Shown here one piece after another: positions 4,867-25,399 of a stretch of DNA of 54,240 bases (the stretch's first letter is position 1; every line of letters starts with the position of its first letter). This DNA is from Planctomycetota bacterium. GTDB taxonomy: Bacteria > Planctomycetota > Phycisphaerae > UBA1845. The notes under the pieces were generated by a model that was not told the DNA's origin, searched no databases, and worked only from the letters and a program-made list of their open reading frames with translations. Position numbers and translations under genes: made by a program. The stretch lies in assembly GCA_024280855.1 (NCBI GenBank), contig JAJRPG010000095.1, positions 1 through 54,240 on the forward strand, written 5' to 3'.

Positions 4867-4944
4867 CGACGAATCCCCAATACTGTTAAGGCCCTCCAAT
4901 CTATTTCTTCAACTACCTATCATGTAGCGTGCCTAAATAAGCAT

Positions 4945-9748: not shown

Positions 9749-9809
9749 GTTGCCTTTGGCTAAGTGTTGCCAAACGTAGTTTACCGGGCTTTTGCGAGAG
9801 GACAGGTCA

Positions 9810-10940
9810 ATGGCTATGTTTCCAGTCCGCCGGGCAGAATCCTTCGACTTCACCGACATTGCTTACGACAAGTCGAATCGGGTCGCTCGAATTACCATCA
9901 ACAGACCACACAACTACAACGCATACAGCACCCCTGCCCTTCAAGAATTAGCTACCGCTTTTGAAGACGCCTCCTGGGATGATGGCATCGCCGTGGTCGT
10001 ATTCAGTTCCACAGGCCACCAATCCTTCTGCACTGGTGGCGACGTCAAAGAATATCAATCGGAATACACACAAAAACCTCGCGATTACTGGAAATACATG
10101 TCATGCTTCAAAGCATACATTGAGTCCATAACGAATTGCTCTAAGCCCGTCATAGCACGCATCAACGGCATGGCTGTAGGCGGTGGAAACGAAAGCCAGC
10201 TCGCGTGCGATCTCGGCGTTATGAGCGAACATGCTTTTATTGCACAAGTCGGAACCAACGTTGGTTCAGTGGCTTGCGGCGGGTCAACACAATGGCTACC
10301 CATACACGTAGGCGACCGTCGCGCACGTGCCATTCTTTTCCTAAACCAGCGATACGCCTCATTTACGTCACTATCGATGGGGCTAGTAAATGCCGTCGTG
10401 CCAACAGTTAAAGGCCCTGATGGAAAATTCATTACAACCTTCACCGGAGACAGGAATTTCCTAGCGGATTGGAACACTGACCCATGGGATCAGCCATTCC
10501 AAGCACGTGCCACTCCCGAACAAATACGCCTGGCTATAAAAGGAAAAGAAGGCTACAGCATTGATTTATCGCTGGTAGACAACACCGTCTCCGAACTCTG
10601 CGATCAAATCGTTCATAAATTCGCCGAATGCACACGATACACCAAAACTCAGGTCAATTATTGGAAGGATGCAGCTTGGCATGCCACGGTTGGACATGCC
10701 AGAGATTGGCTATCCATCCACTATACCAGCCTGGAGCCTTACGAAGGCATGACTGCGTTTGTTGAAAAAAGAAAAGCTGATTATATCGGCATGCGCGATC
10801 GGGCAACTGACCCTAAGGGTTCAAGCGAATTCCTATGGGGTCCTTATGCAAAACAGTGTAGCGAATGCGGCGCTAAGGGTATGCCACGACAATTCGAGCA
10901 TTGTGGTAAATGTGGCGCAGCATTAACTGCCAAACCCTGA
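9810..10940 (+). CDS. oah: 6-oxocyclohex-1-ene-1-carbonyl-CoA hydrolase
   Basis: The protein has 376 residues in the crotonase superfamily, close in length to Oah/BamA. It hydrolytically opens the six-membered ring of 6-oxocyclohex-1-ene-1-carbonyl-CoA to give 3-hydroxypimelyl-CoA, the committed step of anaerobic benzoyl-CoA breakdown. The ARINGMAVGGGNESQLACDL segment carries the oxyanion-hole glycines, and SFCTGGDVKEY the N-terminal CoA-pocket motif. The ATG at 9810 has GAGAGGA seven bases upstream; an upstream TTG at 9792 is less likely. The last 27 residues hold CxxC-x11-CxxC (Cys 350, 353, 365, 368), a zinc-ribbon-like tail I do not associate with the family. It is the first gene of the rightward unit. 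Confidence 0.9.
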   Translation: MAMFPVRRAESFDFTDIAYDKSNRVARITINRPHNYNAYSTPALQELATAFEDASWDDGIAVVVFSSTGHQSFCTGGDVKEYQSEYTQKPRDYWKYMSCFKAYIESITNCSKPVIARINGMAVGGGNESQLACDLGVMSEHAFIAQVGTNVGSVACGGSTQWLPIHVGDRRARAILFLNQRYASFTSLSMGLVNAVVPTVKGPDGKFITTFTGDRNFLADWNTDPWDQPFQARATPEQIRLAIKGKEGYSIDLSLVDNTVSELCDQIVHKFAECTRYTKTQVNYWKDAAWHATVGHARDWLSIHYTSLEPYEGMTAFVEKRKADYIGMRDRATDPKGSSEFLWGPYAKQCSECGAKGMPRQFEHCGKCGAALTAKP

Positions 10941-10973
10941 GTATCAGCATGAAAGCTGTTGAAGAAAACGGCT

Positions 10974-11732
10974 ATGGATAACTGCGAAATGGATAATCCA
11001 TCACGTGTAGCATTAGTCACCGGAGGCAGCAGCGGCATCGGCAGTTGCGTTGCCCAATTGCTAGCGCGTGATGGCTGCGACATAGCGGTTCTCGATCTAA
11101 AACGTCCGAACGAAAGCGATAGTGCATTATACCACATTCAATCTTTGGGAAAACAAGTCTGTTTTCTTGAAGCAAATGTTAGTAAAAGCGAAGAGGTAAA
11201 CACTGCCGTCGAAACGCTTGTAAGTCGATGGGGTCGAATCGACATTCTGGTCAATTGCGCTGGCATCTTCCGAGACCAAGTAATCTGGAAGATGAACGAC
11301 GAACAATGGCGCGATGTCATAGATGTCGATTTAAGTGGCGTTTTTTATTGTTGTCGCGCCGTCTCCCCAATCATGAGAGCCGCAAAAAAAGGCGCTATCG
11401 TCAATATCTCTAGCATCAATGGTATGCGCGGAAAGTTTGGACAGACCAATTACGCCGCAGCCAAAGCAGGCGTCATCGGATTAACCAAAACGCTTGCCCG
11501 CGAACTAGCTCGACGCAACGTAACCGTCAACGCCGTAGCACCAGGACTGATCGAAACCCCGATCCTGCAAAACATGTCGGAAACGGCTCGATTAGATGCC
11601 GTAGCTGAAATACTTCTCGGTCGCACCGGACAAGTAGAAGACGTCGGTGAGATGGTCTCTTTTCTTTGCAGCGATCGAGCAAGGTTTATCACGGGAGAAG
11701 TGATTCGCGTGGATGGAGGCCAATACATTTAG
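10974..11732 (+). CDS. Short-chain dehydrogenase/reductase (3-oxoacyl-CoA/ACP reductase type)
   Basis: The product is about 252 residues with a classical SDR layout: TGGSSGIGS cofactor loop near the N-terminus, NCAGI, the catalytic Ser-Tyr-Lys set (ISSING...YAAAK) and the C-terminal SDRARFITGEVIRVDGG. NAD(P) is the expected cofactor. Between oah and dch, the likeliest role is oxidation of 3-hydroxypimelyl-CoA to 3-oxopimelyl-CoA before thiolysis, or a redundant dehydrogenase alongside the large fusion at 20331. The start is uncertain: ATG at 10974, an ATG at 10989, and a weak upstream TTG are all in frame, none with a strong ribosome site. Confidence 0.85.
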   Translation: MDNCEMDNPSRVALVTGGSSGIGSCVAQLLARDGCDIAVLDLKRPNESDSALYHIQSLGKQVCFLEANVSKSEEVNTAVETLVSRWGRIDILVNCAGIFRDQVIWKMNDEQWRDVIDVDLSGVFYCCRAVSPIMRAAKKGAIVNISSINGMRGKFGQTNYAAAKAGVIGLTKTLARELARRNVTVNAVAPGLIETPILQNMSETARLDAVAEILLGRTGQVEDVGEMVSFLCSDRARFITGEVIRVDGGQYI

Positions 11733-11773
11733 CTGCAACCACCATACAGCAGACTGGAAATGAAAGGGAAATA

Positions 11774-12544
11774 ATGTCTGAATATAAGAACTTTAAGCTA
11801 CAAACAGGCAATTCGATAACCACGATCACCATGAGTCGACCGCCATTGAACGTCATGGACAATCTTATGATGGCCGAATTCAATGAGCTGCTGGAATCCG
11901 TCCTGACCAATGACGAAATCAGTGCAATTGTCATCGCAGCAGAAGGCAAGGCCTTTAGCGCAGGCGTAGATGTTTCGGATCATTCCGACGAAAAAGTCGC
12001 TGACATGATCCACCAGTTCCACGGCATCTTCCGCAAACTCGCATCAACAGATGCACTGACCATCGCAGCCGTTGGAGGCGCAGCATTGGGAGGCGGATGT
12101 GAACTAGCCTGCTTCTGCGATATCGTGTTGGCATCAGATAGAGCCAAGTTTGCTCAACCAGAAGTCATGGTCGGCGTATTCCCGCCGGTAGCGGCTTCTA
12201 TGCTTCCACTGCAAATCGGCATTAAGAAAGCCATCGAATTTAACGCACTGGGTGGAACCATAATGGCCGTTGAAGCGCACAGAATCGGCATGGTCAATCA
12301 AGTATTTCCGGCAGATGAGTTCCAGGCTAGCGTGGATAAATATCTAGATGGGGTGCGAAAACTCTCTCGACCTGTAGTCAGAATGGCCAAAAGAGCGACG
12401 GTACTGGTAGCAAGAGAACAAATCCTCTCACACTTGGATCGCTGCGAAAAGATTTATTTGAATGAGCTAATGAAACTCAAAGATACACACGAAGGCATCG
12501 CGGCTTTCATGGAAAAACGAGCACCGGTTTGGAGCCATGCATAA
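11774..12544 (+). CDS. dch: Cyclohexa-1,5-diene-1-carbonyl-CoA hydratase
   Basis: The protein has 256 residues in the crotonase superfamily, the usual size of Dch/BzdW. It adds water to the diene made by benzoyl-CoA reductase, giving 6-hydroxycyclohex-1-ene-1-carbonyl-CoA. Signs are MSRPPLNVMD at the N-terminus, AFSAGVDVSDH, VGGAALGGGCELACFCDI and the family-specific QPEVMVGVFPPVAASMLP in place of the IPGAGGTQRL of ordinary enoyl-CoA hydratases. The start at 11774 has AAAGGGAA upstream; a longer frame from 11666 overlaps the SDR gene and is not credible. The position directly before had fits the pathway order. Confidence 0.9.
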   Translation: MSEYKNFKLQTGNSITTITMSRPPLNVMDNLMMAEFNELLESVLTNDEISAIVIAAEGKAFSAGVDVSDHSDEKVADMIHQFHGIFRKLASTDALTIAAVGGAALGGGCELACFCDIVLASDRAKFAQPEVMVGVFPPVAASMLPLQIGIKKAIEFNALGGTIMAVEAHRIGMVNQVFPADEFQASVDKYLDGVRKLSRPVVRMAKRATVLVAREQILSHLDRCEKIYLNELMKLKDTHEGIAAFMEKRAPVWSHA

Positions 12545-12582
12545 CGCAATCGACAAGATTTTGATTTAGGAAAGGTAGGCAC

Positions 12583-13602
12583 ATGAAAGCTGCAGTATTG
12601 CACGAAGATGGCACACTTAGGATTGAGGATATTCCTGTGCCAAAAATCGGGCCAGGCCAGGTTCTTGTTAAGGTTGCGGCATGTGGCGTGTGTCACACTG
12701 ATCTGCACTATATCGAGCACGGCGTACCAACATTCAAAAAGCCCCCCATTGTCCTAGGCCACGAGGCATCGGGCATAATCGAAGAAGTCGGCGACGGCGT
12801 CACCAACGTCAGGTCCGGGCAAAGAGTTTTGATACCAGCGGTGCTCACCTGCGGAAAATGTGAAGCGTGTCGCCTTGGGCGTGAAAATATTTGTAGCGAC
12901 ATGACCATGCTCGGGAACCATTTTAATGGCGCCTACGCAGAGTATGTAGCTGTTCCAGCCAAAGACATCCTTGATCTTCCGGAATCAATTCCTCTTGAGG
13001 AAGCCTCCATTATCGCAGACGCCGTCTCGACGCCCTATCACGCCGTAAAAAACCGCGCACGTGTTCGGGCCGGTGATACGGTAGTCGTATTTGGTTGCGG
13101 GGGCGTGGGCATCAATGCCGTTCAACTTTCCAAGGCTTCTGGCGCAAGCGTGATTGCAGTCGACATCAGCGATAAGAAACTCGAATGGGCGCGTGAATTT
13201 GGCGCAAGCCACACGATTAACGCTAGTAAAGTTGACCGCATTGATAAGGAAATTAAAAAACTCACCGGCGGTGGAGCTGATATCGCCATTGAAGTAATCG
13301 GAAATCCCAAAACAATAGAAGCAGCATTCGATAGCGTGCGCGTAGGCGGTCGACTATGCGTCGTTGGCTACACCCACGAAAAAATTTCAATCGTCGCCGG
13401 AAAAATCATGTTCAAGGAATTAGAAATTGTCGGATCACTAGGATGCCGCCCCGTGGATTACATTCCACTCATTCGTATGGTTGCAGAAAACAAGATCAAT
13501 ATCAAACGCCTGGTAACCCACCGTTTCGATCTGAGCGACATAGAAAAAGCCTTTGACGCCATGAAAGAAGGCATTTCGCTTCGTTCTATTGTGATTCCAT
13601 AG
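12583..13602 (+). CDS. had: 6-hydroxycyclohex-1-ene-1-carbonyl-CoA dehydrogenase
   Basis: The product has 339 residues in the zinc-dependent medium-chain dehydrogenase family. It oxidises the 6-hydroxy group to the 6-oxo compound with NAD. Catalytic zinc ligands are visible in CGVCHTDLHY and GHEASG, the four-Cys structural zinc site in CGKCEACRLGRENIC, and the Rossmann motif VVFGCGGVGINAVQ with Asp after the second strand (VDISDKK), favouring NAD. ATG with a good AGGAAAGG site. Assignment to Had rather than a general alcohol dehydrogenase relies on its place between dch and reductase-type genes. It is somewhat shorter than the Thauera enzyme as I recall it. Confidence 0.85.
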   Translation: MKAAVLHEDGTLRIEDIPVPKIGPGQVLVKVAACGVCHTDLHYIEHGVPTFKKPPIVLGHEASGIIEEVGDGVTNVRSGQRVLIPAVLTCGKCEACRLGRENICSDMTMLGNHFNGAYAEYVAVPAKDILDLPESIPLEEASIIADAVSTPYHAVKNRARVRAGDTVVVFGCGGVGINAVQLSKASGASVIAVDISDKKLEWAREFGASHTINASKVDRIDKEIKKLTGGGADIAIEVIGNPKTIEAAFDSVRVGGRLCVVGYTHEKISIVAGKIMFKELEIVGSLGCRPVDYIPLIRMVAENKINIKRLVTHRFDLSDIEKAFDAMKEGISLRSIVIP

Positions 13603-13614: not shown

Positions 13615-14856
13615 GTGACCATAGCCGTAAAACGTGTGCCCATCAAAGCCCGCAAAAGATTGCAGACGTTGATGCACGATTACTTCTTAAATCTCGACGC
13701 AGCCGCTACGGATTCAAATAGAAACGTAGCGTGGTGCACATCTGTGGGGCCTTGCGAGATTTTAACTGCGTTTGGCTACGAGGTATATTTTCCGGAAAAC
13801 CACGGCGCAATGCTTGGCGCACGTAAGATCAGTCACGAGTGCATCCCGGCTGCAGTGGCCATAGGGTATTCCGCTGAGTCCTGTTCATATATGACCAGCG
13901 ACATCGGATCGGCACTATCTGGTGTTAGCCCTTTGACCGAAGCATTCGGAATCTCAGGCCCACCTAAGCCAGACCTTCTATGCTATAACACGAATCAATG
14001 CCGCGAAGTGCAGGATTGGTGGAATTTCTTTGGCCGACGACACAATGCCCCCGTCATGGGAATTGGCCCCCCTACTCACTTAGATCTCGTCACCGAAGCA
14101 CACACGGATTTCGTTCGCAACGAATTATCCCAACTCATCACAAGGATCGAATCGCAAACAGGCACTAAAATGGATTGGGCCAAGCTTGAAGAAGCGGTGG
14201 ATAAATCTAGCAAGGCAAGCTCACTTTGGCGCAAAGTGCTTGATACCGCCCAATCTCATCCTTCGCCGATTACTTTTTTTGACGGTTTGATCCACATGGC
14301 CCCTGTCATTCTCATGCGTGGCTCACAACATGCAATTGATTACTACACGCTGCTTCTAGCTGAAATGAATGAACGTACAAATGCCAAAGAGGCGGCAGTC
14401 ACGAATGAACGCTTCCGTATCTATTGGGACGGCATGCCCGTTTGGCCCAAAGTACGCGAAATGTCGGAAAAGTTTTTCGATCTCGGTTTATGTGTCGCAG
14501 CTAGCACATATTGCAATTCCTGGGCATTCGAAGAGTACACCGGCGGTGACCCATTAGCTTGGATGGCTAAGACAAGCACAAAGATTTTTATTAATCGAGA
14601 TGAAACGTTCAAGCAGAAATTTTTACTCGACATGTGCAAGCAATTCGATATTGACGGCATGATTTTTCACAATGCTCGCACTTGTCCCAATAACACCAAT
14701 TCCCGCTTCGGGATGGCCCAGCGACTGCGCGACGAATCCGGGCTACCCGTATTGGTTTTCGATGGCGATTTGAGCGATGTCAGGTTCTTCTCGACCGCAC
14801 AAACCATGACAAATATCGAAACCTTTGTCGAACAATTGGAGGGACGTTGCCGTTGA
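13615..14856 (+). CDS. HgdB/BcrB-family FeS subunit, uncharacterised (lone 2-hydroxyacyl-CoA dehydratase/BCR-like)
   Basis: The protein has 413 residues and a GTG start with AGGAG nine bases upstream. It belongs to the family of BcrB/BcrC, HgdA/HgdB and the double-cubane cluster proteins. The three cluster cysteines shared with BzdN and BzdO are recognisable: Cys90 (ESCSYMTSDIG), Cys129 (NQCREVQDWW) and Cys357 (ARTCPNN). Further cysteines at 41, 47, 76, 123, 293, 300 and 341 exceed what BzdN/BzdO show; Cys300 (STYCNSW) sits where other family members have a conserved Cys near a GxR element. Only one such subunit is present, with one activator ATPase overlapping its end, as in double-cubane protein pairs or YjiM/YjiL. 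Substrate unknown; it could be another ATP-driven reductase serving this pathway. Confidence 0.8.
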   Translation: MTIAVKRVPIKARKRLQTLMHDYFLNLDAAATDSNRNVAWCTSVGPCEILTAFGYEVYFPENHGAMLGARKISHECIPAAVAIGYSAESCSYMTSDIGSALSGVSPLTEAFGISGPPKPDLLCYNTNQCREVQDWWNFFGRRHNAPVMGIGPPTHLDLVTEAHTDFVRNELSQLITRIESQTGTKMDWAKLEEAVDKSSKASSLWRKVLDTAQSHPSPITFFDGLIHMAPVILMRGSQHAIDYYTLLLAEMNERTNAKEAAVTNERFRIYWDGMPVWPKVREMSEKFFDLGLCVAASTYCNSWAFEEYTGGDPLAWMAKTSTKIFINRDETFKQKFLLDMCKQFDIDGMIFHNARTCPNNTNSRFGMAQRLRDESGLPVLVFDGDLSDVRFFSTAQTMTNIETFVEQLEGRCR

Positions 14857-15662
14857 GAGAGAATTTGTTTATCGGTATTGACGTAGGCTCCTCAGCTACC
14901 AAGTGTGTCATCCTTGACAATACGGGCACGTGGCTGGGACATCATGTCGTATCATCCGGCGTCAACTATGCTGATGCCATTGACACGGTTGTCTCCCATG
15001 CCCTCTTGCAAGCAGAGGGGAGCAAAAAGGACATTGCATACTGCGTTTCCACAGGCTATGGACGCAAGCACGTCACTTTCTCTGATCGCTTCGTAACGGA
15101 AATCACGGCTCATGCACGAGGAGCACGAGAATGGAATCCCAGCGTGCGAAACATCATCGATATAGGCGGGCAAGACACAAAATATATCAGGATTGACGAT
15201 AACGGTCAGCTTATTGATTACCGCATGAATGCGAAATGTGCAGCTGGCACGGGCACATTCCTGGAGTCCATCGCAGTCAAATTAGGCATGACACTTTCAG
15301 AACTAGACGAGCTAGCCTTAAAATCGACAGCTCCCACCCTGGTCAATAGTTATTGCACAGTCTTCGCAGGCACAGAAGTCATCGAACGCATTAAAGAAGG
15401 ACAGTCGCCGGAAGATATTGCGATGGGACTGTTCCACTCCATCGCTTCGCGTGTGAAAGAAATGATCCCCTGTAGTGTGGAAACTGTTGGTGTAACAGGT
15501 GGCGTCGTCGAACACTGTCGAGCGTTAGTCATAGCACTAGAAGAAGCGCTCAGCGGCGCAATTATAGAAGCGCCAATGCCCCAACATGCCGGGGCGTATG
15601 GTGCAGCCTTGTTGGCACTGGAATCGAATCCAATCTTCGAAAGCAAGGTGGATCATGCTTAA
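14853..15662 (+). CDS. ASKHA ATPase activator (HgdC/BcrD family) for the lone HgdB-like subunit
   Basis: The product has 269 residues, using a TTG at 14853 that overlaps the upstream TGA stop as TTGA, with GGAGGG nine bases before it. It is an ATP-dependent electron injector of the BcrA/BcrD/HgdC type. The phosphate-1 loop GIDVGSSATK, DIGGQDTK and VTGGV motifs are intact. The cluster ligands of the dimer-bridging [4Fe-4S] are Cys129 (KCAAGTG) and Cys168 (SYCTVFAGTE). HgdC-type activators work as homodimers, so this single gene could fully serve the 413-residue partner. It is separate from the bzdP/bzdQ pair 10 kb downstream. Confidence 0.88.
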   Translation: MRENLFIGIDVGSSATKCVILDNTGTWLGHHVVSSGVNYADAIDTVVSHALLQAEGSKKDIAYCVSTGYGRKHVTFSDRFVTEITAHARGAREWNPSVRNIIDIGGQDTKYIRIDDNGQLIDYRMNAKCAAGTGTFLESIAVKLGMTLSELDELALKSTAPTLVNSYCTVFAGTEVIERIKEGQSPEDIAMGLFHSIASRVKEMIPCSVETVGVTGGVVEHCRALVIALEEALSGAIIEAPMPQHAGAYGAALLALESNPIFESKVDHA

Positions 15663-18600
15663 GCAGGGAAATCTCGGTATCCATCCACCCGGCGCATTGG
15701 GCGTGGCCTTTTTCGTTCATGCCAATGCTGACTGCCTGCTAGGGCGTGGTGGAGATGGCGTGACAAATACCCTCAAAGAAAAAGCCTTGTTTCGCTTAAA
15801 GGAAAATGGAAAACTGCGTATCGTTTCATTGAAGAAACGCATCTATTCCAACCTTCTAGAAGCCGACGCACTCAACTCGATGCCAGAGCTAATTCTGGTT
15901 TGCTGCAATCCCGATCAACTCGGCTCGCTTACCGCACATATCGTATGGTACTTGGAAAATCTTGCGAACCGAGGCAAACTTAACAGCGTTCAAGATATCC
16001 AGGCGCGCGTCCCGATCCTGCTAGTTCTCCCCAATGGCATACTCTTCGAGCAAACCGTAAAAACTTACGAGGATCAACTTCACGAAGCCATTTTACTACA
16101 CCGAATCCAAGGCGTTAGTGACAAAATGGTGCGAGCGCTTCTCGATCGAGTAGTTCGAGGTGTTGCGCTCCAAGCCGGCGGGCGGCATGGAAGCGGAACA
16201 GACACTGTTTACATACTAGAACGCAAAGGATCACTCCTGTTTGCCGACGGCGGTGATCTTGAAAGATCGAGGATTGAAAATATCCTCTCTGCACACGAGT
16301 ACCCCTTCACGCATGTACGCGGCGTGCCAGGCACAAGAATCGAATTCGACAAAGGCATGATTTCGATGATTCTCAACGTGGGTGGCCTCATTCATATGGT
16401 CGATGAGCAAGGTGTACTTCGAGACTTACGAATGGGTGATCTGTGCAACGATCCTACGAAAGCCGAATTCATTAAGAAAGTCACTCAAGCGGTCTTCGAC
16501 GTGGGTAAAGCGGTCGGTGCTTATTCAGATGATGCAGCTCTTGGTAACGTCTGGCCCAACCACCTAAAAACAATCCTCGCTCACGCAGGACACATCACCA
16601 GTTCACTAAAAGGCTTCCGCGACGCGCTATCACAAGGGCTAGATAGTGTCCAGCTGTTCTCGAATGAGGAATGGCTACTCACACCTCTCGCCACTTACGC
16701 TGCCAAAGTCGGGCTTACCAAGGAAGAAGAGCTTTTCAATTCACTCCGGCGTCAAGTCCAAGCTGCGATGGCCCGCGCCATCAGATTTCGCGATCAGGAT
16801 TCCGAAGAAAATCAATCAAAGGCCAATGCCATGAATCTTTCCGCACAACGTAACATTAATATAGAATTGTACGACTCCGGACCTGACAATCTACTGCTCA
16901 TAGGAACGATGCTCGACCAGGAGCACTTGATTAAACTGCAAGTAACCATTTACCTACCCGACGAGCAAATTACACATTGCAGGATACAAATGATCCGATC
17001 TCCATTTCCGGTGTGCAGCGAAGTCCACACACTCGCCGAGCGATTGGTAGGCCTACGAATTCAGCGCGGCGTCCTCAACGAGGTCAGCGAGCGATTAGGT
17101 GGACGTATAGGCTGTTCACATATCAAGGAATTAGCCAACAGTCTCATATACTTTGTAGCCTCACACCTCGTGCGTCGCCGCACCGGCGTTGATCCCATGT
17201 CCACCGATTACGCTCTCAAACCGGCCGAGGAAAGATTTACCCTGACCAAAGAATTACTCCGCGACTCCTGCTTGGCTTATTGCCAAACAACGCCTCATAT
17301 GCTCGATGAAAAAATAGGGATCAAACGCATAGGCCAGGAGCACAAAAGCCATATTGATTTAGAACCTTACGAAACCTCGATTGGAAAAATCATCGAGGAT
17401 CGTTCTAATCGTTGGGCAGATCAATCCTACATACGCAGCAGAATCGGTGAAGTCGAACACCAAATCAGCCGGAAAGAATTTTCACAAAACGTCTTTCAGA
17501 TCGCTCGCCATCTAATCGATCTTGGCATTCAACCAGGACATCGAGTCGCCATGCTCTCCGAAAATCGAGTTGAAATGTTCATATTTGATTTAGCGGTCAT
17601 TTCAATCGGGGCGACCTCCATCCCCATATTCGCAGGTTATCCCGCAGATCAGGTAGCCTACGTAATTGGACATTCGCGTCCTCGCTTCTTAGTAGTTTCA
17701 GGAGCACATCAACTTGAAAAAATCAACCAATCACAACACACTTGGATCGAAAAATACTTCTGCATGGACTTCGACAACACCGCAAAATCCTGGGGAGCGA
17801 TTGATTTTTCAACTTTGCTCATCAGCGGCGGCGCAACACCTCAAGAACTTAGCAATCGCATCGATGCAGTGTCCCCCGACGATCTCTGCATCGTCATGTA
17901 CACATCGGGAACCACAGGACCACCCAAAGGTGTCAAACTATCTCACAGAAACATCATCTCACAGCAAAAAGCCATTGAACAGATTTGGGATGTTGGAGAA
18001 AACGACGCCGTCCTAAGCTACTTGCCCTGGCATCACAGCTTCGGCGGATTGTTTGAGCGATTCATGACGCTCTACCATGGCTGTACACTTTGCCTGGATG
18101 ATTCGCGCGGACGCGACATAGACAGAATGATAGACAATTGGAAAGCTTTCAATCCTACCTTGTTTTTCAGTGTGCCACGAATTCACGACATGCTCATTAC
18201 TCAGTGCAGCGAACGACCTGAAATTAACGACCTTGTGTTCGGTAGAAATTTGAGATTCGTATTTACAGCCGGCGCATCGCTCTCAGCCACAGTAGCAGCC
18301 GAATACAGAAAACACGACATTCCGGTGCTAGAAGGATGGGGTTTAACCGAAACATCACCCTGCGTAACCATGACCAGTATCGAAGGCGAATGGAAAAGCG
18401 GCAGCGTCGGATTCCCTATCCCCGGCGTAAAAGTCAGAGTCGATAGCGACCAAGAAATCCTAGTCAAAGGCCCAAACGTCATGAGTGGATACTTGGACGA
18501 TGAAGAAGCAACCTCACGCGTCATAGACAACAACGGATGGCTCCACACCGGCGATTTGGGGCAATACACAACCGAAGGACTCATCCTATACGGCCGCAAA

Positions 18601-19059
18601 GACGGCGCATTCAAATTGACGACCGGCGAGAAAGTACATCCCCAACGCATCGAAACGGTGCTGGTTAACGAATCCCCCTACATCAATCTCGCGGTCGCCC
18701 TCGGCTCAGGTAAGGACTACGTCTCCGTATTGATTTATCCCGATTTCAGCAGATTACGCGCATGGGCACAAGAACATGGAATCGAGGATGAGTGCCTGGT
18801 CAATTTGCCCGAAGTTCGCGCCCTCTATGCTGAAGAATTAAGCCGAATCAATCCTATGATCGAAGTCAAATACCAACGCGTGCGACGCGCTCTTTTATCC
18901 ACATCAGAACCATCCATGGAAAATGGCGAATTAACAGCCACAGGAAAAATTTCCCGCAGGTCAGTCATAAACAACCGCAAACATGAGCTTGAAGAATTAT
19001 ATGCCGCTCAATCAAATGGCACGGTAATTGTAGTGGGTGAATTGCAGAGGATAAATTAA
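15655..19059 (+). CDS. Triple fusion: ketopantoate-reductase-like domain, DUF2889, acyl-CoA synthetase
   Basis: The protein has 1134 residues; ATG at 15655, overlapping the previous gene by 8 bases. Residues 1-390 resemble ketopantoate reductase: an altered N-terminal glycine loop (HPPGALG), a Lys/Asn helix motif (FDKGMISMILNVGG, ~230) and a TSSLKGFRDAL element (~315). Residues ~395-530 match DUF2889, with a Cys/His pattern (PVCSEVHTLAERLVGLRI, ERLGGRIGCSHIKELA). Residues ~575-1110 are an AMP-forming acyl-CoA synthetase close to long-chain types: YTSGTTGPPKGVKLSHRN near 748, GWGLTETSP and GWLHTGDLG, with a plausible adenylation-active Lys region GKISRRSV. It is the only CoA ligase in the island and so the best local candidate for activating an acid substrate. 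The role of the first two domains is unknown. Confidence 0.82.
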   Translation: MLKQGNLGIHPPGALGVAFFVHANADCLLGRGGDGVTNTLKEKALFRLKENGKLRIVSLKKRIYSNLLEADALNSMPELILVCCNPDQLGSLTAHIVWYLENLANRGKLNSVQDIQARVPILLVLPNGILFEQTVKTYEDQLHEAILLHRIQGVSDKMVRALLDRVVRGVALQAGGRHGSGTDTVYILERKGSLLFADGGDLERSRIENILSAHEYPFTHVRGVPGTRIEFDKGMISMILNVGGLIHMVDEQGVLRDLRMGDLCNDPTKAEFIKKVTQAVFDVGKAVGAYSDDAALGNVWPNHLKTILAHAGHITSSLKGFRDALSQGLDSVQLFSNEEWLLTPLATYAAKVGLTKEEELFNSLRRQVQAAMARAIRFRDQDSEENQSKANAMNLSAQRNINIELYDSGPDNLLLIGTMLDQEHLIKLQVTIYLPDEQITHCRIQMIRSPFPVCSEVHTLAERLVGLRIQRGVLNEVSERLGGRIGCSHIKELANSLIYFVASHLVRRRTGVDPMSTDYALKPAEERFTLTKELLRDSCLAYCQTTPHMLDEKIGIKRIGQEHKSHIDLEPYETSIGKIIEDRSNRWADQSYIRSRIGEVEHQISRKEFSQNVFQIARHLIDLGIQPGHRVAMLSENRVEMFIFDLAVISIGATSIPIFAGYPADQVAYVIGHSRPRFLVVSGAHQLEKINQSQHTWIEKYFCMDFDNTAKSWGAIDFSTLLISGGATPQELSNRIDAVSPDDLCIVMYTSGTTGPPKGVKLSHRNIISQQKAIEQIWDVGENDAVLSYLPWHHSFGGLFERFMTLYHGCTLCLDDSRGRDIDRMIDNWKAFNPTLFFSVPRIHDMLITQCSERPEINDLVFGRNLRFVFTAGASLSATVAAEYRKHDIPVLEGWGLTETSPCVTMTSIEGEWKSGSVGFPIPGVKVRVDSDQEILVKGPNVMSGYLDDEEATSRVIDNNGWLHTGDLGQYTTEGLILYGRKDGAFKLTTGEKVHPQRIETVLVNESPYINLAVALGSGKDYVSVLIYPDFSRLRAWAQEHGIEDECLVNLPEVRALYAEELSRINPMIEVKYQRVRRALLSTSEPSMENGELTATGKISRRSVINNRKHELEELYAAQSNGTVIVVGELQRIN

Positions 19060-19060
19060 G

Positions 19061-20311
19061 ATGAGAAATGCTAACACTCCATCCGTAGTAATCGCGGGCG
19101 CAGCTCGTACACCATTTGGCGTCAAATGCGGCACATTGTCCCAGTTATCAGCAGAAGACCTAGCCGTCTTAGCTTGCAACGAAGCCATTCAACGCTGCGG
19201 AGTCGACAGAAGCAACATCGACGCCGCAGTCGGCGCAAACGTCTATCAGTGCACAGCGCCTGGCACCCAAGATATTTACTTCCCGCGCAATGTAGGCCTA
19301 AGATGCAACATCCCACAGGAAGCGCCCGCCCTGCTTGTACAACGTATTTGCGGCTCTGGCCTGCAAGCCATCGTCACAGGCCTTGGACAAATCCTTCTCC
19401 CCCAAGCCATCGACAACGCGAATATCGTTCTCTCATTTGGCGCAGAAACGATGTCGCGTGCGCCGCAAATTCTTCGCAGCCCACGCTCCAAAAGAAATTT
19501 CTGGGAATTCCTGGAAGGCGGACACCTGGACGACGTCATGCTCACCTCACTTAACCACGACGTAGCCTCCACCAGCATGATGCGCACCGCCGACGAATAT
19601 GGCCAACAAATGGAAATCACTCGCGCCCAATGCGATGAGTTCGCCATGTTCTCACACGAACGAGCACGACAGGCATTCCGTTCAAGCCAATTCAATGGCG
19701 GTGATGCACTTTTGGGAATGTTCGCCGTCGACACAAAAGCACCCAATGGCACACCCATCCATCTAGCTCGCGATGAGTGTGTAAGAAAAACTTCGCTCAA
19801 CATTCTAAGTAAGCTACCAGGCTTGACCCCTCATAAACTCGTTTCCCCCGGCAACGCCAGTGAAATTAGCGACGGAGCGGCAGCTGTACTTCTTGTTGAA
19901 CGGACGAAGGCTGACCAGCTAGGACTACCGACCCGATTTGAGATCGTAAGTTACGGGATAGCCGGCGTGGACCCTCGCGTCATGGGGCGTGGCCCAGTTC
20001 CTGCCATCAATCAGGCACTCCAAAAAGCAGAGCTATCCATAAATGACATCGGACTATGGGAAATCAACGAAGCGTTCGCAGCACAGTTTCTCGGCGTCGA
20101 AAAGGAACTCAATTTGGATAGAGAAATCACAAACGTCAATGGCGGCGCCATCGCGCTTGGACATCCTCTAGGGGCTACCGGCACGAGATTGATTGTCGAT
20201 CTCATGTACGAAATGAAGCGACGTTCTGTTCAATACGGATGCGCCTCAGCCTGCATCGGTGGCGGACAAGGCATCGCAATGATCATCCGTGATACGGAAC
20301 TAAAACAGTAA
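19061..20311 (+). CDS. Acetyl-CoA acyltransferase (thiolase)
   Basis: The protein has 416 residues with all thiolase hallmarks: nucleophile Cys in QRICGSGLQAI, NEAFAAQF, the GHPLGATGTR histidine motif and the second Cys in SACIGGGQGIAM. It starts one base after the stop of the preceding fusion gene. In this setting it most likely cleaves 3-oxopimelyl-CoA to glutaryl-CoA and acetyl-CoA, the last step of the island. General beta-oxidation is the alternative. All catalytic positions are intact. Confidence 0.9.
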   Translation: MRNANTPSVVIAGAARTPFGVKCGTLSQLSAEDLAVLACNEAIQRCGVDRSNIDAAVGANVYQCTAPGTQDIYFPRNVGLRCNIPQEAPALLVQRICGSGLQAIVTGLGQILLPQAIDNANIVLSFGAETMSRAPQILRSPRSKRNFWEFLEGGHLDDVMLTSLNHDVASTSMMRTADEYGQQMEITRAQCDEFAMFSHERARQAFRSSQFNGGDALLGMFAVDTKAPNGTPIHLARDECVRKTSLNILSKLPGLTPHKLVSPGNASEISDGAAAVLLVERTKADQLGLPTRFEIVSYGIAGVDPRVMGRGPVPAINQALQKAELSINDIGLWEINEAFAAQFLGVEKELNLDREITNVNGGAIALGHPLGATGTRLIVDLMYEMKRRSVQYGCASACIGGGQGIAMIIRDTELKQ

Positions 20312-20330
20312 ACAGTTGTAGAGAATAATC

Positions 20331-22805
20331 ATGAAAAATGCATTTTCATTTGGCGATAAAACAATCGAAGCCGCAGTCACCAAGGTGAATAACTTACAAC
20401 GCATTGCCCTTATCGGTGCGGGTACAATGGGGCAAGGCATCGCCTTAGACCTGATGAATAAAAGCAATTGCGAGCTTGTCATTCTCGACATTTCCGAGCA
20501 AGCACTACAAAACGCCAGAAAGCGATTTGAAGATCACTGGACCAGGCAAGTAGCCACATCACGACTTCGTCAGGAAGACGCCGATGCACTAGCAGCACGG
20601 GTAGAGTACGCCACCGATTTCAATAAACTTTCCCAAGTCGATCTGATCTGGGAAGTCGCATCCGAGCGTAGCGAAGTCAAAGCCAGCATCTTCAAATCCA
20701 TTGAACAATTCGCCGATACCGAACGCCTGATAGCTGTTTTCTCCAACACGTCCTCTCACACCTCAGCCGAGTTGGCCGAACTGTTCAAAACCCAGGCCTA
20801 CCGCGAAAGATTCCTAACCGTTCACGGGTACTTCCCGTTCGACGCCAACCGTCTCATAGACGTCATGAAAGGAAAATACGCTTCAGAATCGGTGTTCGCG
20901 TTTGGCGTCGTTTTCGCAGATCAGATTCTCGAAAAAACAGTCATCGCCCTTCCCGTAGATCATCATGGATACATCACCGACCCGATCTTCCAAGCCATGG
21001 GTGCGATCATTTCCTGGGATGTTCAAGATTCGCGCGATATCATCCAGTTAGGCGGCCTATGGGAATTATTCACCGCCAACCCCTTCATGGTGCTAGACCA
21101 GACAGGTCACATGCCATACACCGAATCTTCACGCCATCTAGGACAGGCACTCCCCGATAATGATCGTCTGCGAGGTCTATACAATCGCAACGGTAAACAT
21201 TACCCCGACTGGATCGCCCAACTCGAAACATCCGGATGCACCGGCGTGAACTCAAAATCACATGAAGGATTCTTTGCCTGGAATACAAAAGGACAACCAA
21301 AGGCTACAAGCGTATTAAACCCAGCCAACGGTTCTTACGTACCCATCGAAGAAATCTCTCGTAAGGATTACTGGTCATTCTACGAAGCCGCCGAACAAGA
21401 TCGCCGCGCAGGAAAAATCAAAAGTGTAGATGCCTTAATCCACGTAGCTTGTGCCGATGACGCAGGTGGTCGTGCATTCCGAAGATACGCCATGCCGATT
21501 TGCCTATACGCACTCGACATGATTCAAGACCACGCTGCCTCTCCGGGCCAAATCAATATGGCCACCCGCGCCGGGCTTCGTTTCAAAGCCGGTCTGATTG
21601 AAGTCATAGATGGACTCATCAACCATCTAACCATCGATGGCCTGCTCGAATTAATCCGTCGGGCACGCGACGAAAATGCAGATGATGCTCACTTCATCGA
21701 CATGCTAGATGTCGATGGCCATACAGGACCACGACAAGGCATACCCTGCCTGCTTCATGAAATGAAAAAACGCAATCTCACGCGACTACTCCAATACGGA
21801 AAATACAATAACACACCGGTCGCAGAACTTGATCTTGAGACTGGTAAATACCATGGCTGCTACATGGATTTGAAATTCTACGAACCATCCCATAAAGACC
21901 GCGTAGCGAGCATAGTTTTCAACTCTCCATTACGCGGTAACGTTTTCAACCGAGCGGTAATCGATCAACTTCATCACGCTGTGAGCCGTGTACTTGAAAT
22001 GCATCGCAAAGGCACCTGTGGCGCCGCACTCTTTTCAGCCGCGGGTTCCGGCATGAGAATGCTCGGGGCCGATGCGAGAGAATTCAACCGAGGATGGTTT
22101 GAACGCGATAAGGGCTACGTCCCCTTGACCGAAGAACAGGCCGCCGCATCCAGTCGAAACGCCGTTAGCTGCTTCCGCTTACTGCAAGAAAGCCCGGTCG
22201 CCAGCATCGGAGTCTTTGGTGAAAAATGGGGGGGCGGCGCAGAATTCACCTACTTCCTTGATCAGCGCTACGATGTACGCGCGTTCGGTTTCGTTTACGA
22301 CTCACTAGAACGCACCACACGCTGGCAACAGTCCAACACTTATAACCAGCCTGAATTGGATTATGCGATTCTGCCAGGATTTGGTGCAGTAGGCGAATTA
22401 AAACGACTTGGCATGGGCGACTCTGTAATTTTCGAGGTTTTTGACGCCGGCATGAACGCCGACCGCGCCTACCAGGTTGGCCTAAGCAATGGCGTGTTCG
22501 ACGATGAGTTAGAAGCCCTTCGCCGTGGCTACGAGCGCGCCCGCAACATGGCCAAGGATGCCCCCTACTCACGAGCACTATTCAAAAAGGAACTCGCACG
22601 CGGCGCGGACGATGCGGAACTCGCCCACGAAACTGGCGAGATATTCAATCCAAAGAAAAACAAATTCATCGACACTGGACTATTAGCATTACTAGATCGT
22701 GGAGCAAGAACGAGAAAAATGGACTACAACTGCGCAGACACCAAGCTACCTGGGTGGAAATATCCAGAAGAAAACGGAGTGGCTACGCAAATATCGCAAG
22801 ACTAA
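20331..22805 (+). CDS. Fused 3-hydroxyacyl-CoA dehydrogenase / enoyl-CoA hydratase, divergent
   Basis: The product has 824 residues. The N-terminal NAD-binding domain (RIALIGAGTMGQGIALD, residues 24-40) and a C-terminal 3-hydroxyacyl-CoA dehydrogenase part (to ~510) are followed by a crotonase domain (~520-745). The order is reversed relative to FadB/FadJ. The dehydrogenase SNTSS motif is kept (138-142), but the catalytic segment normally HFFNP...E reads H165-GYFP with Asp177 in the Glu position. The crotonase part keeps the oxyanion glycines and Glu638 (GGGAEF) and a second acid in QPELDY (Glu675). It could oxidise 3-hydroxypimelyl-CoA and hydrate an unsaturated dicarboxyl-CoA. The divergence leaves room for a special ring-derived substrate. 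Twenty bases separate it from the thiolase gene. Confidence 0.82.
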   Translation: MKNAFSFGDKTIEAAVTKVNNLQRIALIGAGTMGQGIALDLMNKSNCELVILDISEQALQNARKRFEDHWTRQVATSRLRQEDADALAARVEYATDFNKLSQVDLIWEVASERSEVKASIFKSIEQFADTERLIAVFSNTSSHTSAELAELFKTQAYRERFLTVHGYFPFDANRLIDVMKGKYASESVFAFGVVFADQILEKTVIALPVDHHGYITDPIFQAMGAIISWDVQDSRDIIQLGGLWELFTANPFMVLDQTGHMPYTESSRHLGQALPDNDRLRGLYNRNGKHYPDWIAQLETSGCTGVNSKSHEGFFAWNTKGQPKATSVLNPANGSYVPIEEISRKDYWSFYEAAEQDRRAGKIKSVDALIHVACADDAGGRAFRRYAMPICLYALDMIQDHAASPGQINMATRAGLRFKAGLIEVIDGLINHLTIDGLLELIRRARDENADDAHFIDMLDVDGHTGPRQGIPCLLHEMKKRNLTRLLQYGKYNNTPVAELDLETGKYHGCYMDLKFYEPSHKDRVASIVFNSPLRGNVFNRAVIDQLHHAVSRVLEMHRKGTCGAALFSAAGSGMRMLGADAREFNRGWFERDKGYVPLTEEQAAASSRNAVSCFRLLQESPVASIGVFGEKWGGGAEFTYFLDQRYDVRAFGFVYDSLERTTRWQQSNTYNQPELDYAILPGFGAVGELKRLGMGDSVIFEVFDAGMNADRAYQVGLSNGVFDDELEALRRGYERARNMAKDAPYSRALFKKELARGADDAELAHETGEIFNPKKNKFIDTGLLALLDRGARTRKMDYNCADTKLPGWKYPEENGVATQISQD

Positions 22806-22901: not shown

Positions 22902-24068
22902 ATGAATAATAAAATCTTTGACGAGTGGCCAGGCAAACCCCTCGATGAGATACTTTGCCTTTGCAGGGACTTGGTAGAAGACCCCACCTATCCAACCGTT
23001 AAACGCTGGCGAGAAAACGGTGGCAAAGTTGCCGGTCATTTTCAAGTCTATTTCCCCGAAGAAATCGCTCACGCCGCGGGCATGTTGCCAGTCAAGCTGC
23101 GTGGTGCGCCAGTAGAACTGACAAGAGCGGATTCGCACTTCGGGTCATACCTGTGCTCAATACTAAAAACATCACTGGAAATTGTAGCAACGGGAGAGCT
23201 TGAACTCGACTTATTCGTTTCGCATCCCATCTGCGACGCCGCTAGAAATCTCGCAGCCATTTGGGGCCGAAACTTCGACTATCCTTGCCAGATTCTCTAC
23301 CTCCCACAGAACCCAAACTCTAGCCAAAGTGCGCAATATTTAAGTGACGAATACAACCGTATTAAAAAGCTGATTGAAAAAATCGCTGATCGATCGATAA
23401 CAGAAGATGATCTTCGTCACTCAATGAATGTCTTTAATGAAAACCGGCGCTTAATGCGCGAACTATACGACATCAAGCGAGAAACACCCTGGCTCGTCGC
23501 AGCCGAGGACGCTTACTGTCTCGTATCTGTAGGCGGCATGATTCCCAGAGAAGAGCATAACGAATTACTTCAAGCGGTCATTCCGCAATTGAAACAGCGG
23601 CAGGTCAAACAACAGGACAGAATTCGCGTGGTCTTTGAAGGTGGTTTTTGCGAGCAACCGCCGCTAGACCTTATTCGAATGCTCGGACGAAGTTGTTACT
23701 TAGTCGATGACGATCTTCTCATCGGCATGCGATGGATTATTGAAGACGTGTCCACCGAAGGCGACGCCATGTTCAACCTCGCCAACGCCTATTTAGAAAA
23801 GTCTTCTTACAGTCCAGTCCAACACGACAACCGTAAACCAAAAGAAGAAATGCTGATTCGTCGTATCGAAGCATCGCAGGCAGACGCCGTGATCGTCGCA
23901 GCCGCAAAAATGTGCGAACCAGGCCTGGAAGAACAGGTCGCCTATACACACGCCTTAGACGAAAAAGGTATTCCATATTTCGTGAGTGAATTTGAAGAAA
24001 ATATGACTTCATTCGAACACCTTGAATTGCAGGTTGAAACCTTTTTGGAAAACCTGTTGTTCGCTTAG
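22902..24068 (+). CDS. bzdN: Class I benzoyl-CoA reductase, small FeS subunit (BzdN/BcrC type)
   Basis: The protein has 388 residues in the HgdB/BcrC family. Three expected cluster cysteines are visible, in [23 protein letters not shown] and [12 protein letters not shown]. The N-terminal [18 protein letters not shown] is the family's substrate-domain signature. With BzdO it forms the benzoyl-CoA-binding half of the oxygen-sensitive ATP-dependent reductase that dearomatises benzoyl-CoA to the 1,5-diene. The gene order (small, large, ATPase, ATPase) matches bzdNOPQ of Azoarcus and bcrCBAD of Thauera; two ATPases of only ~30 kDa point to the Azoarcus subtype. The ribosome site before the ATG at 22902 is weak. 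Other substituted aromatic CoA esters are possible substrates. Confidence 0.87.
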
Positions 24069-24085
24069 CCATGAAGGATGAATCG

Positions 24086-25387
24086 ATGAGTACAACAGTA
24101 GATAAACAGGATATTGTCGGACGCGGCAACCGCGACGGCGCACAACACTTCCGCGACTGGTTTTCAGAATTGACTGATACAGCCAAGCAGGGAGGCCAAT
24201 CAGCCTATGTATTCGTCATGGGCAGTTTAAACGAAATTCTAAAGGTATTTGATCTGCCAGTCGTTTTCCCTGAAATTAATTCATTACAAACAGCCGTCCG
24301 GCGCGTAGCCCACGAATATCTCAGCGAAGCCGAAGACTACGGCTATTCGCCAGACATTTGCGGATACGTCAAGGCCGATGTCGCCGTACAACTACGTCAT
24401 GGCGAGCATCCCATGGGGCAAATCCCAGAACCCAGCATCGCCGTACTGACCAACGCCTGTAACACCTACATCAAGTGGGCCGAAATCTGGCAGCGGATGT
24501 ACGACATCCCCATGGTCACCATCGACATACCAGGCACGCGCGAAGCTGATGGACAAACGTGGAAAGGAGACAAAAATTTCGAAAACGATCGTAAATATGT
24601 CTCTACCCAATTAAAAGAACTCATTAAGACTTGCGAGCAGGTCACTGGAAAAAAGTTCGACATAGACAAATTTCGAGAAATTCTTGGCTACGCAAATGAT
24701 ATGAGTGTGGGCTGGAAAAGAGTGATCGAGTTGAACAAAAACAGGCCCTCGCTGTTTAATGCACTCACCGACGGAACCATCTATCTCGGTGTAGCCAATG
24801 GTTTCCGAGGAACCAAGATCGGCAGTACATACTTCAAAGAGCTTGTTGAAGAAATGGAATACAGAGCCGAACACGGCATCGGAACTCTAACCGAAGAATT
24901 ATATCGACTCGTGTTCGTCGGCGTACCATGTTATCCAATCTTCAGAAGATTTAACGAACTATTCTCCGAATGGGGTGGAACGTTTATCAACTCCACATAC
25001 CTATGGTTTGCTTCCGGTGGAACCAACATAGGCTTCGAGTACGACCTCAGCGATCCCATCGAAAGCCTGGCCGAGGGATTACTCATCAGCGTGCGCGATG
25101 CCATGGATAGTATGTTCTACCAGGATCGTATGATGTCAGACATGATCGAAGAATTCGGAGTAGACGGCATCATCTACCATCCCATCAAGAGTTGCCGAAC
25201 AGTATCCACCGGACTCGCAGACAGTAGGCGCTATCTCGCCAAGAAACACGACATTCCCAGCCTATTCATCGAATCAGACATGATGGATCGACGCGTGGTC
25301 AGTGAAGCGCAAATGAAGAATCGTATCGATGCCTTTTTCGAAGGACTAGAGTCACGCCGCAAACAGGCAATCAATCATAGATCATAA
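24086..25387 (+). CDS. bzdO: Class I benzoyl-CoA reductase, large FeS subunit (BzdO/BcrB type)
   Basis: The product is about 433 residues with an ATG at 24086 and AAGGA eight bases upstream; an ATG at 24071 lacks a ribosome site. The three cluster cysteines appear in SPDICGYVKADV, LTNACNTYIKWAE and HPIKSCRTVSTG. This subunit pairs with BzdN to hold the active-site [4Fe-4S] cluster and substrate. It begins 17 bases after the bzdN stop and ends 12 bases before bzdP. Unlike the lone HgdB-like protein at 13615 it has few extra cysteines, consistent with a single cubane. Confidence 0.88.
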   Translation: MSTTVDKQDIVGRGNRDGAQHFRDWFSELTDTAKQGGQSAYVFVMGSLNEILKVFDLPVVFPEINSLQTAVRRVAHEYLSEAEDYGYSPDICGYVKADVAVQLRHGEHPMGQIPEPSIAVLTNACNTYIKWAEIWQRMYDIPMVTIDIPGTREADGQTWKGDKNFENDRKYVSTQLKELIKTCEQVTGKKFDIDKFREILGYANDMSVGWKRVIELNKNRPSLFNALTDGTIYLGVANGFRGTKIGSTYFKELVEEMEYRAEHGIGTLTEELYRLVFVGVPCYPIFRRFNELFSEWGGTFINSTYLWFASGGTNIGFEYDLSDPIESLAEGLLISVRDAMDSMFYQDRMMSDMIEEFGVDGIIYHPIKSCRTVSTGLADSRRYLAKKHDIPSLFIESDMMDRRVVSEAQMKNRIDAFFEGLESRRKQAINHRS

Positions 25388-25399
25388 GGAAACCTTTCC

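Follow-up and report, generated by a model that had tools for sequence, protein, structure and literature searches.

A single-subunit branch of the benzoyl-CoA reductase/2-hydroxyacyl-CoA dehydratase family in a planctomycete aromatic-degradation operon, with a probable role in aryllactyl-CoA dehydration

Contig JAJRPG010000095.1 of a Planctomycetota bacterium (assembly GCA_024280855.1; 54,240 nucleotides, hereafter the window) carries a gene for a lone subunit of the benzoyl-CoA reductase/2-hydroxyacyl-CoA dehydratase (BCR/HAD) family, which we call the orphan. The gene (13615..14856, + strand; GTG start, 413 aa) encodes an HGD-D protein of the alpha (HadB/BcrB) side of the family, as judged from Pfam (219 bits, curated cut-off 28.4), the nearest structure (HadB) and a phylogenetic tree. 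It represents a distinct, hitherto unnamed single-subunit branch of this known family of radical enzymes. On sequence grounds, it is most likely an (R)-2-hydroxyacyl-CoA dehydratase for aryllactyl-CoA that works without a beta subunit, and the best reading of the locus is that it feeds the benzoyl-CoA pathway rather than being a new dearomatizing reductase.

The orphan is followed by an activator ATPase of the BcrAD/BadFG type (ASKHA; 14853..15662, + strand, 269 aa from TTG), identified by Pfam BcrAD_BadFG (198.5 bits) and TIGR00241 (225 bits). These matches agree with a first-pass annotation of the sequence, which had described a single HgdB/BcrB-like subunit with its own ASKHA ATPase, translationally coupled. 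The coupling is indeed visible as a TGA/TTG overlap at 14853-14856, where the TGA of the orphan (14854-14856) overlaps the activator start at 14853, with a GGAGGG motif at 14838-14843; an alternative listed start at 14847 lies 3 nt from this motif. Moreover, the activator stop codon (15660-15662) overlaps the ATG (15655) of a third gene, indicating that the unit is a triad and not a pair. The orphan and its activator carry the features of the BCR/HAD family: an HGD-D match above cut-off, the Cys pair of ASKHA activators and the three Cys of an alpha-subunit cluster. Cys131 and Cys170 of the activator (numbered from 14847), which we take to be the ligands of the bridging cluster, are Cys in 110/110 and 108/108 aligned activator-like hits, other activators included, from the 80 loci described below.

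A maximum-likelihood tree of 48 rows is split with 100/100 support into a beta side (double-cubane cluster protein (DCCP)/YjiM, BzdN, HadC/HgdB and BcrC/MbdN) and an alpha side (HadB/HgdA, BzdO and BcrB/MbdO). The 18 orphan-family rows all group in a single clade on the alpha side (100/100), distinct from those of BcrB/MbdO (100/99), BzdO (100/100) and HadB/HgdA (100/99); the branching order among these alpha-side groups is not resolved. It should be noted that several rows lack the N-terminus, being trimmed to the Pfam match, and that KH32C_2 is a long branch of unsure placement. The AlphaFold2 model of the orphan (pLDDT 91.9, pTM 0.91) matches HadB best in both fold and sequence (3o3m; VIA Z 48.5, 1.9 Å over 393 residues, 30% identity), followed by BzdO (Z 45.6), MbdO (42.5), DCCP (6eno; 32.8) and HadC (32.7), and Foldseek gave a similar ranking, with HadB first (E 8.9e-30), then MbdO/BzdO and then DCCP. 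Among NCBIfam models, HadB also scores highest at 221 bits (equivalog cut-off 750), ahead of BcrB (132 bits, cut-off 486.55), BzdO (105, cut-off 448.6) and the double-cubane model (56.6, cut-off 350). The orphan lies outside the HadB/HgdA clade and below the HadB cut-off, and it belongs to none of the BcrB/MbdO, BzdO and DCCP/YjiM clades. A position inside BcrB, named in the first-pass annotation as an outcome that would speak against it, was not found, and its proposal of a separate, activator-coupled family member in an aromatic-degradation operon is supported. A BcrB with its partner encoded elsewhere was rejected by the tree and by genome counts. Among the papers listed by searches of the open-licence literature, we recognised none describing this clade as an enzyme.

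The orphan shares with HadB and FldBC the three cluster Cys, the active-site Ser and Glu, a single activator gene and partner genes of a 2-hydroxyacid route. It differs from them in its separate clade, in two additional invariant Cys (41 and 300), in its frequent location in benzoyl-CoA clusters and in its spread over many bacterial phyla and archaea. HadBC, HgdAB and FldBC are alpha-beta heterodimers of two HGD-D proteins, whereas the orphan comes without a beta subunit gene. Known dehydratases are accompanied by a usual 2-hydroxyacid dehydrogenase, in contrast to the ketopantoate reductase (KPR)-type protein found at orphan loci. We take the phenyllactyl-CoA dehydratase FldBC to be a functional cousin of the orphan.

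A scan of named genomes, with confirmation by tblastn, gave at least 573 candidates. The analysis covers the best 80 loci among them, a set skewed to near relatives. The nearest named relatives (64–72% identity, 14 loci) are all planctomycete metagenome-assembled genomes (MAGs), in keeping with a planctomycete host, probably of the Phycisphaerae type, and the 80 loci include Planctomycetota, Bacteroidota, Geobacterales, other Desulfobacterota, Myxococcota, Acidobacteria, Aminicenantes, Proteobacteria, Thermoplasmata, Lokiarchaeota, Heimdallarchaeota and others. The view of the orphan as a planctomycete oddity was therefore rejected, as the family spans bacteria and archaea; a search of plasmids returned only 21–28% matches.

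No beta-subunit gene adjoins the orphan in the window, and the host genome (4.56 Mb, 112 contigs, 96% complete) holds three HGD-D genes, namely the orphan and the pair of a ring reductase 8–9 kb away. Among 30 genomes, five have no HGD-D gene besides the orphan (G067, G071, G082, G088 and G089), as do 5 of a further set of 12 (G082, G141, G183, G185 and G205), that is, 9 of the 41 distinct genomes; the other 32 hold further HGD-D genes. Two cases are firmer. In the isolate Geobacter argillaceus (G066), three orphan-family copies are present, all of them accompanied by an activator and a ligase of the ADP-forming kind, and the only other HGD-D sequence is a BzdN-like fragment. Two of these three sets (L136:3726-4946 and L135:3498-4718) adjoin a CoA-transferase, which suggests different substrates. 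The complete chromosome of Desulfococcus multivorans (G094) encodes the orphan and two double-cubane-type proteins (52% identical to DCCP and 44% to YjiM), and none of its HGD-D genes is of the HadC, BcrC or BzdN type. Given that only double-cubane types stand beside the orphan there, a partner subunit seems not to be needed.

The orphan has eleven Cys, at positions 41, 47, 76, 90, 123, 129, 293, 300, 341, 357 and 412. Three are canonical cluster ligands: Cys90 (codon 13882..13884, +), aligned with BzdO Cys95 and HadB; Cys129 (13999..14001, +), aligned with BzdO Cys128 and HadB; and Cys357 (14683..14685, +), aligned with BzdO Cys380. The first-pass count of these three plus seven other Cys before residue 350 was confirmed. 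C41, C90, C129, C300 and C357 are each present in 80/80 loci, and in a second sample of 30 loci retrieved with a Desulfobacterota query, C300 was found in 30/30 and C41 in 29/30. C47 is Cys in 12/14 planctomycete loci and in 0/66 others, and C293 in 0/14 and 31/66, respectively; C341 occurs in at most a few loci, and C76, C123 and C412 are not conserved. Thus, of the extra Cys singled out in the first-pass annotation (41/47, 293 and 300), 41 and 300 are family-wide, whereas 47 is mostly planctomycete and 293 patchy. The idea that all eleven are meaningful was rejected, as most vary across the 80 loci. Planctomycete paralogs L037-L039 have Ala at both 300 and 47. The second sample shares at least one genome (G082) with the first and some planctomycete loci are apparently duplicated (e.g., L028/L045, L031/L049, L032/L050, L036/L052, L041/L048), and counts were not pooled between samples. 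The row set A2 comprises 59 rows and omits 22 of the 80 loci, namely L100 because of an in-frame stop and 21 more to keep the set short; L100 is nevertheless included in the 80-locus Cys count, in which the planctomycete group has 14 loci.

Cys41 (codon 13735..13737, +) is located at the end of beta-strand 1 according to DSSP of the AlphaFold2 model. The BzdO counterpart of Cys300 (codon 14512..14514, +) is Thr299, three residues ahead of Leu302, which sandwiches the benzoyl ring in BzdO (PMC11971306). Taken together, the DSSP assignment, the alignment and the BzdO text suggest that Cys41 and Cys300 probably line the active site, where they may serve as a fourth ligand, as a proton or hydrogen donor, or as part of a larger cluster replacing the beta-subunit cluster as electron store.

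The residue aligned with BzdO His131, the acid/base residue beside the cluster-bound water (PMC11971306), is Val in 76, Leu in 2 and Ile in 2 of the 80 loci. HadB has Val at this position in the alignment used (PMC11971306 names Ala), and MbdO/BcrB carry Tyr or Phe; this position therefore separates the orphan from the benzoyl-CoA reductases, while His is a mark of BzdO and not of all of them. Glu61, the counterpart of BzdO Glu65, and Ser43 are kept in 80/80 loci.

A second orphan-like copy was observed in 4 of the 80 loci (L080:8762-9994, L088:59-1261, L114:7943-9142 and L116:7911-9107). These copies, 38–41% identical to the window orphan, have lost C90, C129, C357 and C300 and retain C41 and E61, and each has its own activator with both cluster Cys present. 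Such a copy may act as a partner subunit that lacks a cluster, or may be a paralog put to another use, and the retention of C41 in these copies argues that this residue is not only a cluster ligand.

The third gene of the triad (15655..19059, +) encodes a fused protein of 1134 aa, in which a KPR-like domain, a predicted 2-oxoacid reductase (15655..16803, +), precedes a DUF2889 segment (16924..17145, +; Pfam 52.7 bits) and an AMP-dependent acyl-CoA ligase domain (17437..18495, +; Pfam AMP-binding, 261.6 bits). For the low-confidence model of the N-terminal domain (pLDDT 62), all of the 16 best Foldseek matches are ketopantoate reductases or D-mandelate dehydrogenases (E 1.6e-5 to 1.2e-3, rmsd 8–12 Å), and VIA gave Z values up to 15.1 to D-mandelate dehydrogenase over 179 residues. 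This weak model suggests a KPR-type domain fused to the ligase. Some members of the KPR family are D-2-hydroxyacid dehydrogenases (D-mandelate dehydrogenase, for example), which would fit the supply of an (R)-2-hydroxyacid.

The same functions recur around the orphan elsewhere. Of the 32 non-planctomycete loci with flanks of ~10 kb on either side, 31 have an activator, 29 an acyl-CoA ligase of the ADP- or AMP-forming kind, 26 a KPR (ApbA) homolog, 24 an oah, dch or had gene of the benzoyl-CoA pathway, 10 IorA/KorA and 8 an aldehyde:ferredoxin oxidoreductase. For all 66 non-planctomycete loci, many of which end at contig ends, the numbers are 62 (activator), 54 (ligase), 45 (KPR) and 31 (oah/dch/had), and the activator, the fused ligase (N-terminal domain plus DUF2889) and oah/dch/had genes are present in 12/12 planctomycete loci with 5 kb flanks. 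The query proteins for these counts came partly from the counted loci, so that about eight loci match themselves. Moreover, in 9 of 10 genomes hand-picked from the 30, a KPR paralog (72–91 bits) lies within ~10 kb of the orphan, and the stronger PanE-like copy, where present, sits elsewhere in the genome (G067 has no strong copy). In the Bacteroidetes locus L064, KPR and activator are fused in one protein. These KPR and ligase neighbours, together with Val, Leu or Ile at the BzdO His131 position, favour a 2-hydroxyacyl-CoA dehydratase without proving it.

The orphan of D. multivorans DSM 2059 (2,791,057-2,792,316) is 46% identical to the window protein and keeps C41, C90, C129, C300 and C357. 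Its gene belongs to a run with an activator, KPR, an ACT-domain protein, IorB, IorA, two AMP ligases, a TRAP transporter, two histidine kinases, a CheY-like regulator, a thiolase and a hydratase; the histidine kinase, TRAP, PaaK, IorAB, ACT-domain and CoA-transferase names of neighbours are given by eye from translations. This module lies in the published phenylacetate/phenylpyruvate/phenyllactate cluster. There, in the region at ~2.77 Mbp, the TRAP system, the ligase FadD4, Hbd5, a hydratase and a thiolase were formed specifically on phenylacetate and phenylpyruvate, IorA3B3 was formed with phenylpyruvate, and Dmul_C24850-70 were assigned to the conversion of phenyllactate to phenylpyruvate (PMC5109826). 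Phenyllactate supports growth of the organism, and the authors of that study called the step to benzoyl-CoA unclear (PMC5109826). Counting genes along the region, we provisionally equate the orphan with Dmul_C24840 or C24850. A hydratase, a dehydrogenase and a thiolase are what the conversion of cinnamoyl-CoA to benzoyl-CoA would need, a view that is ours and not that of those authors.

A route from phenylpyruvate through cinnamoyl-CoA to benzoyl-CoA has been considered independently for a benzene degrader, in a study that names Fld (PMC13416013). Its authors noted a singular FldB-like gene, BzS1_13720 (30% identical to FldB, no partner named), and considered a phenyllactyl-CoA dehydratase step towards benzoyl-CoA, although the protein was not detected in that study (PMC13416013); we liken it to the orphan by description only. 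In Geobacter metallireducens, no catalytic subunit of these enzymes was found according to the excerpted text of PMC1924859, which indicates that use of benzoate as such does not require the orphan.

The reaction sequence that we propose, in which (R)-2-hydroxyacyl-CoA dehydration by the orphan is predicted from the neighbour genes, would begin with the KPR-type domain reducing an arylpyruvate, or a different 2-oxoacid, to the corresponding (R)-2-hydroxyacid, after which the ligase would form the CoA thioester of the latter. The ASKHA activator dimer would then fire one electron, at the expense of ATP, into the orphan, presumably a homodimer. At a putative [4Fe-4S] cluster held by Cys90, Cys129 and Cys357, a ketyl radical could form and lose hydroxide to yield arylacryloyl-CoA. 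Beta-oxidation of the latter would give benzoyl-CoA (or 4-hydroxybenzoyl-CoA), which the Mbd-type reductase of the same operon could dearomatize.

Several points weigh against this dehydratase scheme. Known dehydratases store the electron on the cluster of the beta subunit (PMC11574389). The five genomes of the first 30 with a single HGD-D gene are all MAGs, and none of the 41 comes with a completeness value. Of the 38 non-planctomycete loci with flanks of 5 kb on either side, 8 contain no KPR match at all, and 8 of the 32 long-flank loci have no oah/dch/had gene. At locus L071, where the orphan is the genome's sole HGD-D gene, KPR and ligase are both missing from the neighbourhood, and that genome yielded no strong KPR match anywhere. 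Among the 29 window proteins scanned with Pfam, none is of the PaaK, ACT-domain or IorA type. The KPR-like call in the window itself depends on a low-confidence model: the N-terminal domain has no Pfam match, its hhalign comparison with KPR profiles was weak (P 0.014, probability 3.1 and 0.5), a single-sequence profile comparison gave no support either, and hmmsearch of its profile against the PDB returned two matches with E 0.16 and 0.21. As for D. multivorans, the orphan is neither named nor stated as detected in the excerpted text of PMC5109826, whose authors assigned the hydratase, Hbd5 and the thiolase to another route.

A more far-reaching version of the dehydratase reading combines three claims, which we consider unlikely to hold all together. 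In characterised 2-hydroxyacyl-CoA dehydratases and class I benzoyl-CoA reductases, the work is split over two homologous subunits (PMC11574389; PMC11971306). The orphan clade might represent a third BCR/HAD architecture, in which one subunit both stores the ATP-energised electron and carries out the radical dehydration. It might do so with a non-standard cluster on the five invariant Cys (41, 90, 129, 300 and 357), part-way to a double cubane, at an open substrate site. Finally, it might define an undescribed route from phenylacetyl-CoA or phenylpyruvate via phenyllactyl-CoA and cinnamoyl-CoA to benzoyl-CoA, with phenylacetate entering through reverse IorAB, in sulfate and iron reducers without Pad enzymes, in planctomycetes and in archaea.

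It is improbable, in our judgement, that the orphan is an ATP-driven aryl-CoA reductase, dearomatizing or reductively dehydroxylating an aromatic thioester of the pathway. It does sit among benzoyl-CoA pathway genes, and it shares with class I benzoyl-CoA reductases (BzdNO 8s02, MbdONPQ 9gai, BcrBC) the family, the ASKHA activator and the alpha-side fold, as reflected in the Z values to BzdO and MbdO; its Glu61 matches the acid Glu65 of BzdO. However, it falls outside BcrB/MbdO and BzdO, has no beta partner and one activator gene instead of two, is frequently accompanied by KPR and, like HadB, has no counterpart of the catalytic His131 of BzdO. Moreover, the operon already has a ring reductase, whose type varies among relatives while the orphan stays. 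The first-pass suggestion of an ATP-driven reductase in aromatic degradation is thus borne out for the aromatic operon, but the term reductase is weakened by the partner genes and by the residue at the His131 position.

We regard as quite doubtful a role as a double-cubane small-molecule reductase, in which a homodimer would, like DCCP, hold an [8Fe-9S] cluster by means of the canonical three Cys together with Cys41 and Cys300 (plus Cys47 in planctomycetes). Like DCCP (6eno) and Escherichia coli YjiM/YjiL, the orphan combines one HGD-D protein with one activator, and Cys300 stands in a column that is Cys in DCCP, YjiM and BzdN and not in HadC, MbdN or BcrC. Of the six double-cubane ligand columns, inferred from the Cys common to DCCP, YjiM and BzdN and not taken from a structure, the orphan fills four exactly, three of them with its ordinary cluster Cys; a fifth, on beta-strand 1, is missed by one residue (C41), and the sixth is empty. 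By sequence, C47 is the sole candidate substitute for this sixth Cys and was not found outside planctomycetes in the 80 loci. The idea depends on one well-aligned extra Cys, one near-aligned and one lineage-specific. Against it, DCCP and YjiM lie on the beta side of the 100/100 split and the double-cubane model gives only 57 bits, C300 is replaced by Ala in L037-L039, and C41 persists in the cluster-less paralogs. Close kinship to double-cubane proteins, which the first-pass annotation had seen in the Cys composition, was accordingly rejected by model score, structure comparison and tree. That annotation had also set the double cubane against the two-subunit benzoyl-CoA reductase core, a mistaken premise given that BzdN itself holds one (PMC11971306), so that this cluster does not set an enzyme apart from that core. 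A full [8Fe-9S] cluster in the orphan is possible but not favoured, and it would not by itself rule out dehydratase chemistry.

Still less probable is that the orphan serves as an alternative alpha subunit, forming a complex with the MbdN/BcrC-type beta subunit of the ring reductase encoded nearby. Subunits of the alpha type are known to make up one half of heterodimers, and the pair of this reductase provides the only other HGD-D genes of the host; nevertheless, the orphan is the lone HGD-D gene in 9 of the 41 genomes, its only HGD-D companions in D. multivorans are of the double-cubane type, and it is unchanged where the neighbouring beta subunit switches type. A non-catalytic accessory for the pathway (reactivation, sensing or cluster storage) is very improbable: the second copies in 4/80 loci, without the three canonical Cys and C300, indicate that the fold can serve without a cluster, but the main copy keeps its cluster Cys, Ser43 and Glu61 in 80/80 loci and travels with metabolic genes.

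The operon around the triad is that of an aromatic-degradation pathway. Upstream genes (9792..13602, +) encode an OAH-like hydrolase, an SDR, a Dch-like hydratase and a Had-like dehydrogenase. The first is an enoyl-CoA-hydratase family open reading frame resembling OAH/BamA (9792-10940, +), and the last (12583-13602, +) matches TIGR03201 with 264.8 bits, under the cut-off of 338.65, for 12583-13599; the OAH and Dch names were assigned by eye and are presumptive. Downstream (19061..22805, +), a thiolase and a 3-hydroxyacyl-CoA dehydrogenase with a weak enoyl-CoA hydratase match are candidates for the beta-oxidation of arylacryloyl-CoA or of the pimelate part. An aryl-CoA reductase core with two activator subunits follows (22902..27042, +). 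The first-pass annotation had named this reductase bzdNOPQ, and it is of the Mbd type instead: the product of 22902-24065 scores 572 bits against MbdN versus 92 against BzdN, and that of 24071-25384 scores 569 against MbdO versus 89 against BzdO. Relatives of the host repeat the gene order OAH-SDR-Dch-Had-orphan-activator-fused ligase-(thiolase)-HADH-reductase, with two kinds of reductase at the same spot (69–85% versus 37–45% identity to that of the window) and the orphan unchanged. We thus observed an Mbd-type aryl-CoA reductase in a planctomycete (22902-27042), and relatives carry either this or the 37–45% type.

Other genes of the window were noted in passing. By eye, 4945-8744 encodes a xanthine-dehydrogenase-type protein of 983 aa, in which the small and large parts are joined, and its FAD subunit, and 28961-30546 encodes XdhC and a MobA-like transferase (Pfam); together they are a possible 4-hydroxybenzoyl-CoA reductase with its maturation genes, which recur in relatives. 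A 749-aa protein (2650-4899) combines a POR gamma domain, a glutamate-synthase-like flavoprotein part and ferredoxin domains and adjoins KorA/KorB-type genes, possibly for ferredoxin supply to the reductases. A HemN/HemW-like radical SAM protein (27414-28772), under all equivalog cut-offs shown, is part of the operon and is also found in the clusters of several relatives. As for DUF2889, it is also annotated ~3 kb from a two-subunit HGD-D and activase set on an Azoarcus plasmid (L125:3244-3822); C453, C486 and H488 of the DUF2889-bearing ligase are invariant in a 14-row alignment, and the low-confidence model has weak matches to IscU-like and other domains (Z ~8).

The finding is more general than the first-pass annotation supposed, and the orphan likely has a role in the entry of arylpyruvate or aryllactate into the benzoyl-CoA pathway. 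It is a testable candidate for the published gap in D. multivorans, and it offers a suggested role for a family of unnamed bacterial and archaeal genes with at least 573 candidates. If true, the existence of a widespread version with one subunit would reveal to what extent the two-subunit machinery is needed.

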